A model generated the notes under the pieces. The model saw only the letters and a list, made by a program, of their open reading frames with translations. It had not been told where the DNA came from and ran no database searches. DNA of 64,000 nt, from positions 402,292 to 466,291 of the forward strand of contig JARJHS010000003.1 of assembly GCA_029269725.1 (NCBI GenBank). The letters are read 5' to 3'. This DNA comes from Pollutibacter soli (GTDB taxonomy: Bacteria > Bacteroidota > Bacteroidia > Chitinophagales > Chitinophagaceae). This document shows, in pieces, positions 1 to 7,698 of the stretch. Position numbers and translations under genes: made by a program. Position 1 is the first letter of the stretch. The number at the start of each line of letters is the position of its first letter.

Positions 1-1094
1 ATCCCTACCAGGTTACGTATGAAGAACTCGTTTTAGGGAAAGGTGAAGGTGACGCCTATTCACGGCCCTACCCTTTTTGCCTTGCCTATGCTCTTGAAGT
101 ACCGGCGTCTGATCTTGGTGCTCCTGAAGATTGGTACGCAGAATGGAAATGGGATGGTATTCGCGGGCAACTGATCAGAAGAAATAATGAATGGTTTGTC
201 TGGAGTCGTGGTGAAGAATTGATGACTGAAAAATTTCCTGAACTATTGCCCTTAAGAGGATTTTTCCCTGATGGAACTGTTGTAGATGGCGAAGTGCTGA
301 TAGCCCGCAATGGTGTTCCACTTCCATTTTCATTACTGCAAACAAGGATTGGCAGAAAAAACATCAGTAAAAAACAACTCACAGAAGCACCTGTAAGTTT
401 TTTTGCATTTGATCTTTTGGAATGGAAAGGTGAAGACCTTCGGCAAATCGCATTCAAAGAGCGAAGAAGATTATTGCAGGCACTTTACGAAAATGTTCAG
501 CATCCTGCATTCCTCATGTCGCCGGAAATAATTTACTCTGATTGGGAAGAGCTTACAGAAATCCGGCAACGTTCGAGAGAAAATGGAAGTGAAGGACTGA
601 TGTTGAAAAGAAAAAGCTCAACCTATCAGACCGGCCGCAAGCGTGGCGATTGGTGGAAATGGAAAATCGATCCGATGACAATTGATGCTGTAATGATTTA
701 TGCACAAAAAGGTCATGGAAGACGAAGTAATCTTTATTCAGACTATACCTTTGCAGTCAGGGACGGTGACAAACTGGTGCCTTTTACAAAAGCGTATTCT
801 GGATTGACTGATAAAGAAATTGCCCAGGTTGATAATTTTGTGAAAAGGAATTCTCTTGAGAAATTTGGTCCGGTCCGCACTGTCAAGGCGGAGCTCGTAT
901 TTGAAATAGCGTTCGAAGGAATCGCGGCGAGCAATCGTCACAAATCTGGTGTTGCATTAAGATTTCCGAGAATGAGCCGTTGGCGCCATGATAAAAAAGT
1001 GGAGGACATAAACACGCTCGGGGATTTGAAAAATATGTTGAAAATTTACGATGCTGTTCGCGAAGAACAAACAAGGGATGCACGGGAGGACTGA
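1..1094 (+). CDS. ATP-dependent DNA ligase, 5'-truncated by the window edge
   Basis: The reading frame is open from base 3, so only the C-terminal ~363 residues are present. Motif I (KWDGIR, catalytic lysine) lies near base 150, followed by FFAFDLLEWKG, the motif IV-like EGLMLKR and the motif V-like WWKWKID; an OB-fold region follows (FEIAFEGI, SGVALRFPR). It joins nicks in DNA using ATP. The gene overlaps the DEXH helicase downstream, the arrangement of the ligase-associated DNA damage response module (ligase, Lhr-like helicase, exonuclease, PdeM). The exonuclease is not in the window and may lie upstream. Family assignment is strong; the exact subfamily (cisplatin-damage-response ligase) is inferred from the neighbour. 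Confidence 0.93.
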   Translation, partial: PYQVTYEELVLGKGEGDAYSRPYPFCLAYALEVPASDLGAPEDWYAEWKWDGIRGQLIRRNNEWFVWSRGEELMTEKFPELLPLRGFFPDGTVVDGEVLIARNGVPLPFSLLQTRIGRKNISKKQLTEAPVSFFAFDLLEWKGEDLRQIAFKERRRLLQALYENVQHPAFLMSPEIIYSDWEELTEIRQRSRENGSEGLMLKRKSSTYQTGRKRGDWWKWKIDPMTIDAVMIYAQKGHGRRSNLYSDYTFAVRDGDKLVPFTKAYSGLTDKEIAQVDNFVKRNSLEKFGPVRTVKAELVFEIAFEGIAASNRHKSGVALRFPRMSRWRHDKKVEDINTLGDLKNMLKIYDAVREEQTRDARED

Positions 1095-3606
1095 TCAATT
1101 CACAGATACAACTGGCTTTTTACATATTAAGCAGTGGTTACATGCAAAGCAGATGTTTCCATTTGCATTCCAACAGGAAACCTGGGAACATATTCATTTA
1201 GCAAAAAGCGGTCTTGTAAATGCACCGACAGGTTGCGGAAAAACTTTTTCAGTTTTCCTGGGGAATGTCATTCGCTATATCAATGCATATCCTGATTCCT
1301 GGAAGCAAAAAAGAAAGAATGGCCTGCAACTGATATGGATCACTCCATTGCGCGCGCTTGCAAAAGATATCGGACGCGCCATGGAAACCGCGTTAGCAGA
1401 AATAAATCTGCCATGGCAGGTAGGTATCCGCAATGGTGACACCGATACAGCCGAACGCCAGCGCCAGAAAAGGAACATGCCGGAAGTGTTGATCATTACT
1501 CCGGAAAGTCTGCATTTATTACTCGCGCAGAAAGATTACTCCAATGTTTTTTCATCACTTCAATGTATAGCCGTAGACGAATGGCATGAATTGCTTGGAT
1601 CAAAAAGAGGTGTGCAGGTGGAACTTGCGATCAGCAGGATTGCTGGTTTGCGTAAAAAATCGATTGTTCATGCTGAAAAGCAGGGAATTGATTTACCGGG
1701 CAAAATAATGATCTGGGGAATCTCGGCAACTATCGGCAACCTGATTGAAGCTCGTGATGTATTGCTCACCCCCGTTATTAAAAACTTTGGCGAGGGAAAT
1801 ACAGTAATCGTCAAAGCCGAAATAAAAAAGAATATCGTTATAGAATCCATCTACCCGGATGAAATTGAACATTATCCCTGGGCTGGTCATCTGGGAATAA
1901 AGCTTGCGCATAAATTATTACCGATCATAGAGAGTAGTCGCACAACGCTGATATTCATAAACACACGTGGAATGAGTGAACGTTGGTACCAGGTATTACT
2001 TGATATCAAACCCGAACTCGCAGGTGCGATTGCTATTCACCACGGTAGTATAGAACAGGCGTTACGGCTTTGGGTGGAAGATGCGCTCCATGAAGGAGTA
2101 CTCAAAGCAGTGGTTTGTACGGCAAGTCTTGATCTCGGTGTTGATTTCAGACCAGTAGAGACCGTAGTACAGGTAGGTTCGCCAAAAGGCGTGGGACGTT
2201 TTTTACAGCGAGCCGGACGAAGCGGTCATCAGCCGGGGGAAACCAGCAGAATATATTTTCTTCCAACACACTCTCTTGAACTCATGGAAGCCGCTGCTTT
2301 AAAAACAGCGATGGAAGAAAATGAAATCGAGAGCCGTGTTCCGATGATGTTGTGTTTTGATGTACTCATACAATACCTGTGTACGCTTGCGATTGCAGAG
2401 GGTTTCAGGCCGGAGGACATTCTACCCGAAATCAGAACCACGCATTGTTATTCCGATGTCACCGATGAAGAATGGTTACAGATTCTGCAGTTCATCACTA
2501 TCGGCGGCAAAGCGCTGCAGCAATACGATGAATTCAAAAAAGTGGAGATTGAAGATGGTGTGTACAGGATAAGAAATAGAAGAGTGGCCATGCGTCATCG
2601 CTTACATATCGGTACCATAGTGAGCGAAGCGATGATGAAAGTGAAATTTATGTCCGGTGGATTCATCGGTGTGATTGAAGAATGGTTTATTTCGAGATTG
2701 AACCCCGGTGATGTGTTCACTTTATCCGGAAGAAATCTCGAATTTATCATGATTAAGGACATGACGGCTGTTGTAAAAAAATCAAACTCAAAAAAATCTA
2801 TAGTACCAAGCTGGCAGGGCGGGCGTATGCCACTATCCGCTAACCTTGGCAGAATATTGAGAAGAAAATTTGATGAAGCAGCAGATCGAAGCCGGGAAGA
2901 AGAAATAAGAAAACTACAACCGCTGCTAGATTTGCAACAGGAACTATCCTATGTGCCAAGACAGAACGAATTACTGATCGAGCATATTGAGACAAGAGAT
3001 GGATTTCATCTTTTCGTACACACTTTTGAAGGACGACTGGTGAATGAAGCGATGGCTGCACTGCTTGCATTTCGTATCAGCAGGATAATGCCGATCACAT
3101 TTTCACTCGCAATGAATGACTACAGTTTTGAACTTCTCAGTGATCAGCCTATTCCAGTAGATGACAGCAATGTGTATGAATTATTCAGTTCAGACAATTT
3201 AATTGAAGATATCCAGCGAAGCGCCAATGCAACTGAAATGGCTAAACGAAAATTCAGGGATATCGCTGTAATCGGTGGATTGATTTTCCAGGGCTTTCCG
3301 GGTGAGCAAAAAAAAGCAAGACATCTTCAGTCATCTGCATCATTACTGTTCCAGGTTTTTCATGACTACGATTCTCACAATCTTCTTATGCGCCAGGCGT
3401 ACCAGGAAGTTTTTGATCAGCAAATGGAGGAAACAAGATTGCGCGACATGCTGACGAGAATACAGCAATCGAAAATCATCCTTTCATTTCCGGAAAGATT
3501 AACTCCGTTCAGCTTCCCGGTTAAAGTGGACAGTCTTCGTGAAAATTTATCTTCTGAAAAGCTCGAAGACAGGGTCAAAAGAATGCAGACGCAATTAGGG
3601 AAATAG
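1078..3606 (+). CDS. Ligase-associated DNA damage response DEXH-box helicase (Lhr-core type)
   Basis: An SF2 3'-5' helicase acting with the upstream ligase in DNA repair. Counting from the earlier possible ATG at 1051, motifs are Walker A APTGCGKT (58-65), DEWH (176-179), SAT (225-227), HHGS (330-333), DLGVD (361-365) and motif VI QRAGRSGH (386-393), followed by winged-helix and Lhr-core regions. The total of ~840-850 residues is normal for this family, shorter than full-length Lhr. I chose the ATG at 1078 because it overlaps the ligase by 17 bases rather than 44; homologues have only a short lead before the FPFQQ motif, so both starts are possible. It ends 15 bases from the convergent ORF6N gene. 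Confidence 0.93.
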   Translation: MHGRTDQFTDTTGFLHIKQWLHAKQMFPFAFQQETWEHIHLAKSGLVNAPTGCGKTFSVFLGNVIRYINAYPDSWKQKRKNGLQLIWITPLRALAKDIGRAMETALAEINLPWQVGIRNGDTDTAERQRQKRNMPEVLIITPESLHLLLAQKDYSNVFSSLQCIAVDEWHELLGSKRGVQVELAISRIAGLRKKSIVHAEKQGIDLPGKIMIWGISATIGNLIEARDVLLTPVIKNFGEGNTVIVKAEIKKNIVIESIYPDEIEHYPWAGHLGIKLAHKLLPIIESSRTTLIFINTRGMSERWYQVLLDIKPELAGAIAIHHGSIEQALRLWVEDALHEGVLKAVVCTASLDLGVDFRPVETVVQVGSPKGVGRFLQRAGRSGHQPGETSRIYFLPTHSLELMEAAALKTAMEENEIESRVPMMLCFDVLIQYLCTLAIAEGFRPEDILPEIRTTHCYSDVTDEEWLQILQFITIGGKALQQYDEFKKVEIEDGVYRIRNRRVAMRHRLHIGTIVSEAMMKVKFMSGGFIGVIEEWFISRLNPGDVFTLSGRNLEFIMIKDMTAVVKKSNSKKSIVPSWQGGRMPLSANLGRILRRKFDEAADRSREEEIRKLQPLLDLQQELSYVPRQNELLIEHIETRDGFHLFVHTFEGRLVNEAMAALLAFRISRIMPITFSLAMNDYSFELLSDQPIPVDDSNVYELFSSDNLIEDIQRSANATEMAKRKFRDIAVIGGLIFQGFPGEQKKARHLQSSASLLFQVFHDYDSHNLLMRQAYQEVFDQQMEETRLRDMLTRIQQSKIILSFPERLTPFSFPVKVDSLRENLSSEKLEDRVKRMQTQLGK

Positions 3607-3620
3607 CAGGCATAAATGAC

Positions 3621-4202
3621 TTATTTGTCATGACGCTTAAACCCGATCATGTTACGCGGAACAGGCTGGCTCTGCTTCTCAATAAAATCTTTTAATACGC
3701 GAAAAATAATACCAATATCAATCGTATTGCTTTTTACATCTTTCTCCAGTTTTGCAAGCTGAGCAAGCATTTCTTTATTGGTTAACGCCAGGTCTTTCAA
3801 TTTCGTGAACACCCTGATGATACGAATATTCACTGCTATAGCAATATCACTGTTAAGCACACTCGATAACATTGCGATTCCCTGTTCAGTAAAAACCATT
3901 GGCATAAAGCGCTGACCTCCCCAACTTGAGGTCGCAAATTGCGACCTCAAGTTTTCAAATTCTTTTTTTGTAAGTACGAACATGAAGTCTTTTGGGAAGC
4001 GAGCAGAATTTCTTTTAACTTGTTCCTTCAACCTCTTCGTTTCAACTTTATACATTTCCGCAAGGTCAGAATCAAGAATTACTTTCTGACCACGAATAAC
4101 CAATATCTTGTTTAATACTTTTTGCTCCGCAACCAGAGTCGCCAATTTATCGCCTTTCATCTTCCGAAATTTACCTGCTGGATTATTAGGTATCACAGCC
4201 AT
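3621..4202 (-). CDS. ORF6N domain protein
   Basis: 193 residues. The central part (about 33-125) has the ORF6N/KilA-N-like pattern: ILVIRGQKVILDSDLAEMY, then RFPKDFMFVLTKKE, RSQFATS, GGQRFMPMVFTEQGIAML and a helical tail. These domains occur in phage antirepressors and also as stand-alone chromosomal genes in Bacteroidota; they are thought to bind DNA. A second ATG (MKGDKL, residue 15) could be the real start. It is convergent to the helicase and lies between repair genes with no other phage gene nearby, so it reads as a solitary domesticated or mobile gene. The biological role is unknown. Confidence 0.85.
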   Translation of the reverse strand: MAVIPNNPAGKFRKMKGDKLATLVAEQKVLNKILVIRGQKVILDSDLAEMYKVETKRLKEQVKRNSARFPKDFMFVLTKKEFENLRSQFATSSWGGQRFMPMVFTEQGIAMLSSVLNSDIAIAVNIRIIRVFTKLKDLALTNKEMLAQLAKLEKDVKSNTIDIGIIFRVLKDFIEKQSQPVPRNMIGFKRHDK

Positions 4203-4695: not shown

Positions 4696-6153
4696 ATGTC
4701 AGATATTCTAAGAGAGATCGATCAGTTTTATTCTACCTGGAAAGCTAACCGTGAACCCGAAGTTGTTACCCTCAAACAAGCAGGAAGCAATCGACAATAC
4801 TTCCGGTTAAAAGATGGAAAAGATTCCTTTATACTGACCAGCAACCCAAATAATATTCCCGAGAATCACGCCTTCGTTGAATTTACGCGGCATTTTACAA
4901 GGCAACAGCTACCCGTTCCGGAAATTTTACATGTTTCAGACGACGAATCAATGTATATCCAATCAGATCTGGGTGATATTTCATTATTCAATATCATGCA
5001 GCAGGAAGGTTTTTCTGACCGGGTTTTTGACCTTTTTAAAAAGACTTTATCACAGCTGGCCAGATTGCAGATTGAGGGCGGAAAGAATTTCGACTATAAT
5101 AATTGCATTGCTACTAAATCTTTCGATAAGCAGGCCATCTACTCAGATCTTCTTTATTTCCTATACTATTTTGTAAGGGCCTTTGATCTCCCTTATGATA
5201 AAAATTTATTGCTGAATGATTTTGACCTGCTGAGTAGTTACCTCATGCAGGAGGACCAGAGTTATTTCATGCACAGGGACTGCCAAAGCAGAAACATAAT
5301 GGTAAAAGATGAGAGAGTATTTTTTATCGATTACCAGGGTGGTATGCAGGGTGCTTTGCAATATGATGTATCAGCCATGTTATGGCAGGCACGGGCTGCG
5401 TTACCCTATGAGTGGAGAGATGAACTCCTCAGATATTACTTTACACAGGCGAATGCTCTTTTGTACAACGGTCTTGACCAGCAGAATTTCACGGAGAGTT
5501 ATGATGGTTTTGTGTTGATAAGGATGCTTCAGACGCTTGGTGCCTATGGCTTCCGAGGACTGTTTGAAAGAAAACCTCATTTCATTTCAAGTATTCCGTT
5601 TGCTTTAAAAAATCTGCGCTGGTTCCTGGATAATAAAAAGTTCCCGATCAGGCTGCCGGAACTTCAGAAAGTATTACGCCTGCTGGTATCAGATGAAATG
5701 CTGACGCGTTACGAAACTGTCAAGGCTGGTCCGGATACACCTTTAACAGTTCACATAAGAAGTTTTTCCTATCGTAAAGGAATACCCGAAGATGAATATG
5801 GAAATGGGGGGGGATATGTTTTTGATTGCAGGGGAATCTTAAATCCTGGAAGAATAGATAAGTACAAAACACAAACTGGCAGAGATAAAGAAGTGCAGGA
5901 ATTTCTTCTTCACAAAACAGAGATCAGTTCGTTTTTACAACATGTATTCGGACTTGTTGACCTGACCGTGCAGGATTATATCAAACGTGGGTTTGATCAT
6001 CTTTCAGTTAGCTTTGGTTGTACAGGCGGTCAACATAGAAGTGTTTATTCAGCCGACAGACTTGCAGATCACCTGAAAGAGAAGTTCGGCGTGAAAACAA
6101 AAGTTGAACACGTAGAACAGGAGGCGAAAAAGTGGATCAATGAAACCTACTAG
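4696..6153 (+). CDS. AmgK-like sugar kinase fused to a RapZ C-terminal domain
   Basis: 485 residues, two domains. Residues ~20-330 are an aminoglycoside-phosphotransferase/choline-kinase fold: Brenner motif HRDCQSRN (193-200, catalytic D196) and metal-binding IDYQGG (D212). Residues ~349-482 match the RapZ C-terminal domain: YVFDCRGILNPGR, TGRDKEV and GCTGGQHRS (441-449), with Thr, Gly, His and Arg conserved. The RapZ N-terminal ATPase is absent, and the basic RNA-binding tail of E. coli RapZ is not visible (the C-terminus is QEAKKWINETY). Family knowledge: AmgK phosphorylates MurNAc/GlcNAc at C1 and pairs with MurU; RapZ_C binds glucosamine-6-phosphate. The MurU-like gene 70 bases downstream supports an amino-sugar kinase. 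A sensory role for RapZ_C here is inference. Confidence 0.85.
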   Translation: MSDILREIDQFYSTWKANREPEVVTLKQAGSNRQYFRLKDGKDSFILTSNPNNIPENHAFVEFTRHFTRQQLPVPEILHVSDDESMYIQSDLGDISLFNIMQQEGFSDRVFDLFKKTLSQLARLQIEGGKNFDYNNCIATKSFDKQAIYSDLLYFLYYFVRAFDLPYDKNLLLNDFDLLSSYLMQEDQSYFMHRDCQSRNIMVKDERVFFIDYQGGMQGALQYDVSAMLWQARAALPYEWRDELLRYYFTQANALLYNGLDQQNFTESYDGFVLIRMLQTLGAYGFRGLFERKPHFISSIPFALKNLRWFLDNKKFPIRLPELQKVLRLLVSDEMLTRYETVKAGPDTPLTVHIRSFSYRKGIPEDEYGNGGGYVFDCRGILNPGRIDKYKTQTGRDKEVQEFLLHKTEISSFLQHVFGLVDLTVQDYIKRGFDHLSVSFGCTGGQHRSVYSADRLADHLKEKFGVKTKVEHVEQEAKKWINETY

Positions 6154-6158
6154 GGTAT

Positions 6159-6179
6159 AACGTAGAACGTTTAACGTAA
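6159..6179 (+). repeat. AACGTnn heptad repeat, 3 units
   Basis: AACGTAG, AACGTTT and AACGTAA in exact 7-base register between the kinase and MurU-like genes. The same unit recurs in at least five other gaps of the window. Confidence 0.8.
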
Positions 6180-6223
6180 GCTCGTGCGAACGCAGTGACT
6201 CCTATGAATATTAAGAAGTCTAA

Positions 6224-6985
6224 ATGATGTCAAATCAGCATAAATCATTTCAGTTGAAAGATGTGAAGGCCATGATTCTCGCCGCGGGATTAGGAACGCG
6301 TCTGAAACCATTTACAGATAAGCATCCTAAAGCACTCGCGCCTGTAAACGGAAAGCCTTTGCTTCAACGAACGATAGAATATCTCCAGGGATTCGGCGTG
6401 CAGAATTTTATTATTAATGTTCATCATTTCGCAGACCAGATCATTGATTTTTTAAAAGACAATGAAAATTTCGGTGCAGATATTACTATATCACATGAAA
6501 AGGATGAGCCTCTTGAAACAGGAGGTGGTTTAATGTACGCTTCATGGTTCTTTGAAAAAGATCGGCAGCCTTTTATAATGATGAATGCTGATATTCTTAC
6601 CACATTGGATATTTCTGCGATGTACGAATTCCACCTTGAAAATAATCCATTGGTTACGCTTGCTATTACAAGAAGAGCGAGTTCGAGGAATTTTCTTTTC
6701 TCCGAAGATGATTACCTGAAAGGATGGCGCAACAACAAAACAGCTGAATTAAAACTGGCTTCAGGATCTGATGAAAATCTTCAACCAGCATCTTTCAGTG
6801 GCATACATATCATCAGCCCTGCGATCTTTCCATTAATTAGCCAGAAAGGAAAATTTTCAATTGTGGAAACATATCTCCAGCTTGCTGCAGATCATCCTAT
6901 CCTTGGATATTTTCACGATCATGATATTTTTATCGATGCAGGAAAACCGGAAGCGATTCTCGATGCAGAGAAATATTTTAAGTAA
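6224..6985 (+). CDS. MurU-like sugar-1-phosphate nucleotidyltransferase
   Basis: 253 residues (or 252 from the second ATG at 6227). The N-terminus carries the NTP-transferase signature MILAAGLGTRLKPFTDKHPK (17-36), then ETGGG (98-102), the metal-binding NADI (121-124), FSGIHIISP, and a C-terminal FIDAGKPEAILDAEKYF. The length and the HFADQI and SGI segments resemble MurU (MurNAc-1-P uridylyltransferase) more than the longer RmlA, GalU or GlmU enzymes. With the AmgK-like gene upstream it would convert MurNAc or GlcNAc 1-phosphate to the UDP-sugar, bypassing fosfomycin-sensitive de novo synthesis (known for Pseudomonas AmgK/MurU; inferred here). Mannose-1-phosphate guanylyltransferase is the main alternative. 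Confidence 0.85.
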   Translation: MMSNQHKSFQLKDVKAMILAAGLGTRLKPFTDKHPKALAPVNGKPLLQRTIEYLQGFGVQNFIINVHHFADQIIDFLKDNENFGADITISHEKDEPLETGGGLMYASWFFEKDRQPFIMMNADILTTLDISAMYEFHLENNPLVTLAITRRASSRNFLFSEDDYLKGWRNNKTAELKLASGSDENLQPASFSGIHIISPAIFPLISQKGKFSIVETYLQLAADHPILGYFHDHDIFIDAGKPEAILDAEKYFK

Positions 6986-7014
6986 TTTAGCGCCTCGACA
7001 AAAGAGGAGTGTTT

Positions 7015-7698
7015 GTGAATCCACCTATCGCGTTTGATATTGCAGGTCAACATTGTTGGTTAAGTGCTGAGAGAACCTTGTTCTGGGAAGAAGCCAAAAC
7101 TTTAATTATTTCGGATCTTCATTTTGGAAAAACCGGGCATTTCAGAAAATCTGGTATACCCATTCCGCAGTCGGTGTATAAAGAAGATCTGCAAAGACTA
7201 TTTCAACAGATTCAGTATTTCCAGCCGCAGGAAATTATCATCACCGGGGATCTTTTTCACAGCAGGGAAAACCAGGAGCATGATTGGTTTGCTCGCTGGC
7301 GTTCGGATATACCAGGAATTCGAATGCACCTGGTAAAAGGAAATCATGATAGTTTAAACAACCGGGTGTATGAAAATCTAAACCTCGTTGTTCATGAAAG
7401 GGAATATTTCTGCAATCCTTTCCGGTTCATTCATGATCCTGCGATGATTCAGGATGAAGTTGAAGGGTTTTACACATTCACTGGTCACATCCATCCCGGT
7501 ATACGGATTTCCGGTGTTGGTAAACAGAGTCTGAGCTTTCCGTGCTTTTACTTTTCAGATTCATTTGCGATACTCCCTGCATTCAGCAAGTTCACTGGTT
7601 ATATTGTTGTTGAGGCTGCAAAGAATGATCGTGTATTTGCTATTGTGAAGGGAGACGTTCGTCGTAAAGAAATGTGTTCGATCATTCAGATACAATAA
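7015..7698 (+). CDS. pdeM: Ligase-associated DNA damage response endonuclease PdeM
   Basis: A calcineurin-type metallophosphoesterase of ~227 residues. Metal ligands are visible in ISDLHFG (near 34-40), ITGDLFHSR (78-86), VKGNHDS (109-115) and FTGHIHPG. Family knowledge: PdeM/MPE is a Mn-dependent single-strand DNA endonuclease encoded with the Lhr helicase, exonuclease and ATP-ligase. Here it lies 3.4 kb from the helicase on the same strand. Two GTG starts are possible (7009 and 7015); I chose 7015 because the purine-rich AAGAGGAG ends 5 bases before it, whereas it abuts 7009. The HDAC-like gene starts 4 bases after the stop, so the two are probably co-transcribed. Confidence 0.9.
   Translation: MNPPIAFDIAGQHCWLSAERTLFWEEAKTLIISDLHFGKTGHFRKSGIPIPQSVYKEDLQRLFQQIQYFQPQEIIITGDLFHSRENQEHDWFARWRSDIPGIRMHLVKGNHDSLNNRVYENLNLVVHEREYFCNPFRFIHDPAMIQDEVEGFYTFTGHIHPGIRISGVGKQSLSFPCFYFSDSFAILPAFSKFTGYIVVEAAKNDRVFAIVKGDVRRKEMCSIIQIQ

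Follow-up and report, generated by a model that had tools for sequence, protein, structure and literature searches.

The window, a 64,000-nucleotide stretch of a Pollutibacter soli contig, contains an open reading frame of 485 amino acids in which a kinase head and a RapZ C-terminal domain (RapZ_C) are joined in one protein (Table 1). Pfam searches placed an APH phosphotransferase domain (PF01636; 1.5e-16) at residues 30-249, where the catalytic RD..N and ID motifs lie, and RapZ_C (PF22740) in the tail, over the Pfam cut-off (3.6e-34; 118 bits against 27). In a sequence search of the PDB, the tail matched RapZ (5o5s, 7.4e-17) and the head matched 3csv, an APH-family protein. A preliminary description of this DNA had reported APH-type motifs and a RapZ_C core in a single 485-residue protein, a MurU-like gene 70 bases after it, and the loss of the RapZ ATPase half. 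We confirmed the motifs, which start at residues 193, 211 and 441, and the spacing. No match to the ATPase half (PF03668) turned up in the window's genome, and none of 40 genomes (the window's and relatives) exceeded the cut-off, with one weak match in a single genome (G033). A chance fusion or an assembly error is excluded, because the fused frame recurs across the family and phylum samples.

Table 1. Features at and around the fused gene (positions in the window).
Feature	Position	Strand	Evidence
Partial match to cisplatin-damage ATP-dependent DNA ligase	219..1094	+	TIGR04120, from profile position 253
Ligase-associated DEXH helicase	1051..3606	+	TIGR04121, 1071 bits
193-aa ORF between helicase and kinase genes	3621..4202	-	no NCBIfam match at 1e-5
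Fused gene, AmgK-like kinase and RapZ C-terminal domain, 485 aa	4696..6153	+	Pfam, NCBIfam, PDB sequence searches
Kinase domain, residues 10-324 by profile (Pfam APH 30-249)	4723..5667	+	
HRDCQSRN catalytic-loop motif, from residue 193	5272..5295	+	motif position
IDYQGG metal-binding-type motif, from residue 211	5326..5343	+	motif position
RapZ C-terminal domain, residues 350-474	5743..6117	+	PF22740 118 bits; PDB 5o5s 7.4e-17
NPGR, site of E. coli N188-P189-H190-W191; Gly in place of H190	5842..5853	+	
GCTGGQHRS phosphate-pocket loop, C-X5-R-S pattern, from residue 441	6016..6042	+	61/61 sequences
MurU-like nucleotidyltransferase, 253 aa	6224..6985	+	NCBIfam, PDB
PdeM	7009..7698	+	TIGR04123, 215 bits

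The two genes had also been described as an AmgK/MurU-type pair, which family searches supported at scores below the curated cut-offs. AmgK was the best named NCBIfam kinase family for the head, weakly (48 bits, short of the equivalog cut-off of 550), and the next kinase-type family scored 17 bits. Five residues of the kinase domain (R185, D186, R190, N191 and D203 in domain-row numbering) are invariant in the 41 rows of our kinase alignment A2. The 253-aa gene encodes a nucleotidyltransferase domain with an AAGxGTR..P.T...PK motif; its two top NCBIfam families were both MurU, at 122 bits (cut-off 250) and 104 bits (cut-off 370), both scores under the curated cut-offs, and the next, non-MurU family reached 83 bits. 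Its best solved relative was MurU (PDB 8hhd).

Ligase, helicase and PdeM genes flank the kinase/MurU pair, which therefore lies inside a DNA-repair gene set. The closest named relative comes from a Chitinophagales MAG contig, with 87% identity, and has its genes in the order kinase-RapZ_C, MurU, PdeM, HDAC, as in the window. Among 60 relatives' loci, helicase and PdeM lay near the kinase/RapZ_C module in one (L079).

Co-occurrence of the kinase and RapZ_C

We searched for RapZ_C (PF22740) in three genome samples, drawn from the window's family (97), class (149) and phylum (392). The three draws overlap, and the genome counts are not phylogenetically independent, as related genomes do not equal independent events. 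RapZ_C was present in 91 of the 97 family genomes (89 in frames of at least 400 aa and two, G215 and G266, as a short separate gene), in 11/149 of the class sample (10 in long frames) and in 54/392 of the phylum sample (40 long frames, 476-524 aa, and 14 short ones, 134-169 aa). Searching genome contigs with the window protein returned one relative (L013), and scans of viral contigs yielded a single distant RapZ_C, without any kinase match.

A kinase-domain profile (A2, 41 rows) was run over the 392 phylum genomes; having been built from RapZ_C-bearing loci, it favours that clade. It matched 120 genomes, 55 of them at 260 bits or more, and these 55 were the 54 with RapZ_C plus one other (G286). 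A tight link between RapZ_C and the kinase is thus supported, as all 54 RapZ_C genomes carry this kinase clade. The remaining 65 matching genomes all belonged to one family (code f85), scored 115-159 bits and had no RapZ_C match. Absences coincided too: the six RapZ_C-less genomes among the 97 of the family had no kinase match at 1e-10, and nor did 18 RapZ_C-less genomes of the class. Strong MurU was absent from five of those six family genomes; the sixth (G243) keeps one (324 bits), with neither kinase nor RapZ_C.

Among the 392 genomes, G286 (locus L162) is alone in having this kinase clade next to a MurU while lacking a RapZ_C match, a natural exception. At three f85 loci (L165, L166 and L167), the gene for a distant AmgK-like kinase lies directly beside a MurU-like gene that is longer (310-319 aa), again with no RapZ_C. 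Because G286 has the kinase, and the 65 f85 genomes a distant one, without RapZ_C, the chemistry does not generally depend on the domain. Related kinases without RapZ_C were also nearer to AmgK (74 bits in G286 and 107 bits in one f85 genome) than those partnered with it (48 bits in the window and 52 bits in one f114 genome). An AmgK-type kinase therefore does not as such require RapZ_C, and the RapZ_C-bearing kinase clade may have changed its substrate.

The fused form accounts for 47 of 61 cases (60 fetched RapZ_C loci plus the window). Most loci of family f37, and that of G303, show kinase, RapZ_C gene and MurU in this order; G215 and G266 have the RapZ_C gene directly next to the kinase, and their fetched stretches contain no MurU. 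In G303, G215 and G266 the linker is where the kinase stops, and RapZ_C begins from an ATG of its own no more than a few bases away. The two genes lie apart in f114 (four genomes), G437 and G576, and both are kept even where the separate RapZ_C is far from the kinase. We found no shared theme among the neighbours of unlinked RapZ_C or kinase genes. In one f114 genome an MFS transporter gene (PF07690; L117:7773-9050, minus strand) follows the separate RapZ_C gene by 33 bases, and at L114 an ORF of similar size follows RapZ_C. On a quick tree of 67 kinases there were three changes between fused and separate forms, a rough count since several branches were weak and the G437 branch was very long. 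Kinase-RapZ_C coupling is recurrent and lineage-wide in the sampled genomes, and a working partnership of the two is well supported.

MurU linkage, AnmK and MurQ

A MurU profile (A4) was run on 80 chosen genomes: the 54 with RapZ_C, G286, 20 without RapZ_C from the window's class, and five of f85. Strong MurU matches (at least 193 bits) occurred in 54/54 RapZ_C genomes and in G286, four of them (G473, G524, G557 and G632) with one stop codon read through, as counted by the tool. All five f85 genomes matched at 129-147 bits. One of the 20 contrast genomes matched, at 95 bits; this contrast set came entirely from the window's class, was not a random draw, and shares two members (G053 and G057) with the 18 RapZ_C-less class genomes above.

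The preliminary description had held that rare adjacency of the two genes among relatives would count against it. Adjacency was not rare: strong MurU lay within 1 kb of RapZ_C in 42 of the 54 genomes and was not near in 12. MurU was matched at 48 of the 60 fetched RapZ_C loci, against one each for PdeM, HDAC and helicase (all at L079), and so the MurU linkage stands out and none of these three is a conserved neighbour.

In Pseudomonas, the route leads from AnmK through the MurNAc-6-P phosphatase MupP and then AmgK to MurU. As sources of, or uses for, MurNAc-6-P we considered the presence or absence of AnmK and MurQ. Among the 54 RapZ_C genomes, AnmK was found in 36 (in G473 as a fragment at a contig end) and not found in 18, and MurQ was found in 23, counted at 268 bits or more, with three of these below the curated cut-off. 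Both were present in 19 genomes, AnmK only in 17, MurQ only in four and neither in 14. All 20 contrast genomes had both, as did the window's genome (AnmK 216 bits, MurQ 319 bits). Since RapZ_C is kept where AnmK or MurQ was not found, a dedicated MurNAc-6-P phosphatase is disfavoured, and a built-in phosphatase of this kind is unlikely as a general role, given the 18/54 genomes where AnmK was not found. Retention in the 14 genomes with neither gene suits a sensor of a widespread metabolite. A gene list of the Pseudomonas AnmK/MupP/AmgK/MurU route is given in PMC13046382.

The RapZ_C pocket and its possible roles

We compared the 61 Bacteroidota RapZ_C sequences (47 fused and 14 separate) with E. 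coli RapZ, whose numbering is used here. C247, T248, G249, G250, H252, R253 and S254 were invariant in 61/61, fused and separate alike, as were D182, R184, N188, P189, G200 and H276. The malonate/sulfate pocket of E. coli RapZ is formed by H190, T248, G249, H252 and R253 (Gonzalez 2017, PMC5737377). Four of these five were identical in all 61 sequences; the H190 position was Gly in all 61, and the Bacteroidota ligand may therefore differ from that of E. coli RapZ. Judged from the alignment, the phosphate loop is strongly constrained and one sugar-side contact is changed. The E. coli C-domain alone is reported to bind GlcN6P (Khan 2020, PMC7073468), and it is plausible that RapZ_C senses GlcN-6-P here too. 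The proposal in the preliminary description, of a built-in amino-sugar sensor that tunes a recycling kinase without sRNA, is partly supported; RapZ_C also occurs as a separate gene, and its invariant loop may be catalytic and not just sensory.

The GC-X5-RS pattern was present in 61/61 RapZ_C proteins, compared with 19 C-X5-R[ST] matches in 282,544 residues of other ORFs. A PDB search with a RapZ_C profile returned three RapZ sequences and two noise matches (E 0.25 and 1.1). Aligned by hhalign, RapZ_C scored 0.5% with the LMW-PTP Wzb and also just 0.4% with PfkA, for which a fold likeness is published; as both were negative, these PTP and PFK sequence tests are uninformative. Structure prediction of RapZ_C from two sequences gave a pLDDT of 43.

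The reading we favour, with about an even chance of being right, is that the pair is a Bacteroidota AmgK-MurU salvage system whose RapZ_C partner binds a phosphorylated amino sugar and adjusts flux without RNA. By family membership, the kinase would phosphorylate C1 of MurNAc (or GlcNAc), and MurU would turn the resulting sugar-1-phosphate into a UDP sugar. RapZ_C would be the kinase's regular partner, acting in cis if fused and in trans if separate. A phosphorylated amino sugar would be bound in its invariant C-T-G-G-x-H-R-S loop, and RapZ_C would tune salvage flux to the amino-sugar pool. The kinase substrate, the RapZ_C ligand and the direction of control are what we infer in this scheme; put more broadly, the data suggest that a partner of the kinase senses or processes amino-sugar phosphates.

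RapZ_C might instead be an enzyme, a cysteine-phosphatase-like (C-X5-R-S) domain with an amino-sugar phosphate as its substrate, in which case the fusion would join a phosphatase to an anomeric kinase; we consider this rather unlikely. The cysteine-phosphatase pattern occurs in 61/61 RapZ_C, the C247A and C247S variants of E. coli RapZ were inactive, for which a catalytic thiol was suggested (Islam 2022, PMC9841335), and a crystal with GlcN6P described there shows a likely 'chemically transformed product'. NTPase and phosphatase activities are described for the RapZ homologue YvcJ (PMC7525490). ATPase and phosphatase activity is also ascribed to HpaP (PMC10782981), which we infer to be a RapZ homologue from its citation in PMC7073468 and PMC7525490. 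However, the published YvcJ and HpaP activities may reside in the ATPase half, a part that the Bacteroidota protein lacks, and the pocket variants tested in E. coli, among them C247 according to the summary of that paper, also lost GlmZ binding (PMC9841335), so lost function need not mean lost catalysis. Moreover, hhalign detected no sequence kinship to Wzb (the PfkA comparison being equally blank), the closest published fold is a phosphofructokinase subdomain (PMC5737377), and as a MurNAc-6-P phosphatase RapZ_C would be idle in the 18/54 genomes where AnmK was not found. The word 'phosphatase' is absent from the text of PMC5737377 and PMC9841335, and the C-X5-R phosphatase reading is that of the present analysis. 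It is improbable, too, that the RapZ C-domain is at root a CX5R amino-sugar-phosphate phosphatase or transferase, with a kinase/phosphatase switch in Bacteroidota and E. coli sRNA control as a later reuse of the phosphate loop.

APH kinases that pair with a nucleotidyltransferase can also have choline or other compounds as substrates, and the scores of the kinase and the MurU-like gene, far below the AmgK and MurU cut-offs, would fit action on another sugar or alcohol, as in an N-acetylhexosamine 1-kinase or a LicA/LicC-like set, with a similar role for RapZ_C. AmgK and MurU are nevertheless still the best named families, and 8hhd is the best solved relative of the second gene, which leaves a different substrate with only a small chance. 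That RapZ_C is a passive oligomerisation or folding module would agree with the reported ability of the E. coli RapZ C-domain to dimerise on its own (PMC7073468), but we hold it very doubtful, with the ligand loop invariant in 61/61 fused and separate proteins and separate, unlinked genes persisting. An RNA-binding regulator is extremely unlikely. Three of seven E. coli RNA-contact positions are largely basic in the 61 sequences (K170 in 60, R184 in 61 and R196 in 54), but the other four are mostly lost, with a basic residue at K194 in 10, R211 in six, R238 in none and K251 in two. The preliminary description was right that the RNA-binding tail is missing: the basic tail is lost, and the median net charge after H276 is 0, versus +3 in E. 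coli. The RNA-binding part of RapZ is also reported to be restricted to Enterobacteriaceae (Khan 2020, PMC7073468).

Significance and comparison with known systems

RapZ has been studied mainly as an sRNA adaptor; for its older function, a role in controlling a two-component system through metabolite binding has been speculated (Khan 2020, PMC7073468). The partnership between the C-domain and a cell-wall-sugar kinase, widespread and near-obligatory in the sampled genomes and fused, operonic or unlinked there, brings the older function within reach of experiments on just two proteins. A peptidoglycan salvage route would then also be under metabolite control; in Caulobacter, loss of AmgK is reported to raise fosfomycin sensitivity (PMC13046382). 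The module is a variant combination of known parts, a kinase and RapZ_C, fused or separate, in many Bacteroidota. Our search found no description of a kinase-RapZ_C fusion in the open-access literature, subscription literature being mostly outside its scope. Protein-domain databases may display the architecture.

As in the AmgK-MurU MurNAc salvage systems of Pseudomonas, Caulobacter and Tannerella, an APH-type kinase gene adjoins a gene for a MurU-like uridylyltransferase; Tannerella forsythia, itself a member of the Bacteroidota, is reported to use AmgK and MurU (PMC7670621). Unlike the Pseudomonas and Caulobacter systems, the kinase carries or co-occurs with RapZ_C, and unlike curated AmgK and MurU, the window pair scores far below the equivalog cut-offs. 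The C-terminal domain keeps C247, T248, G249, H252 and R253 of E. coli RapZ. In contrast to E. coli RapZ and B. subtilis YvcJ, it has no N-terminal ATPase half and is fused to, or partnered with, a sugar kinase; relative to E. coli RapZ, the basic tail is gone and H190 is Gly. Sulfate or malonate binds at the C-X5-R-S loop of E. coli RapZ (PMC5737377). RapZ_C shares this C-X5-R-S pattern with the CX5R[S/T] cysteine phosphatases (e.g. E. coli Wzb), but differs from them in that no sequence kinship was detected with Wzb, the one phosphatase compared, and the published closest fold of RapZ is that of a phosphofructokinase subdomain.
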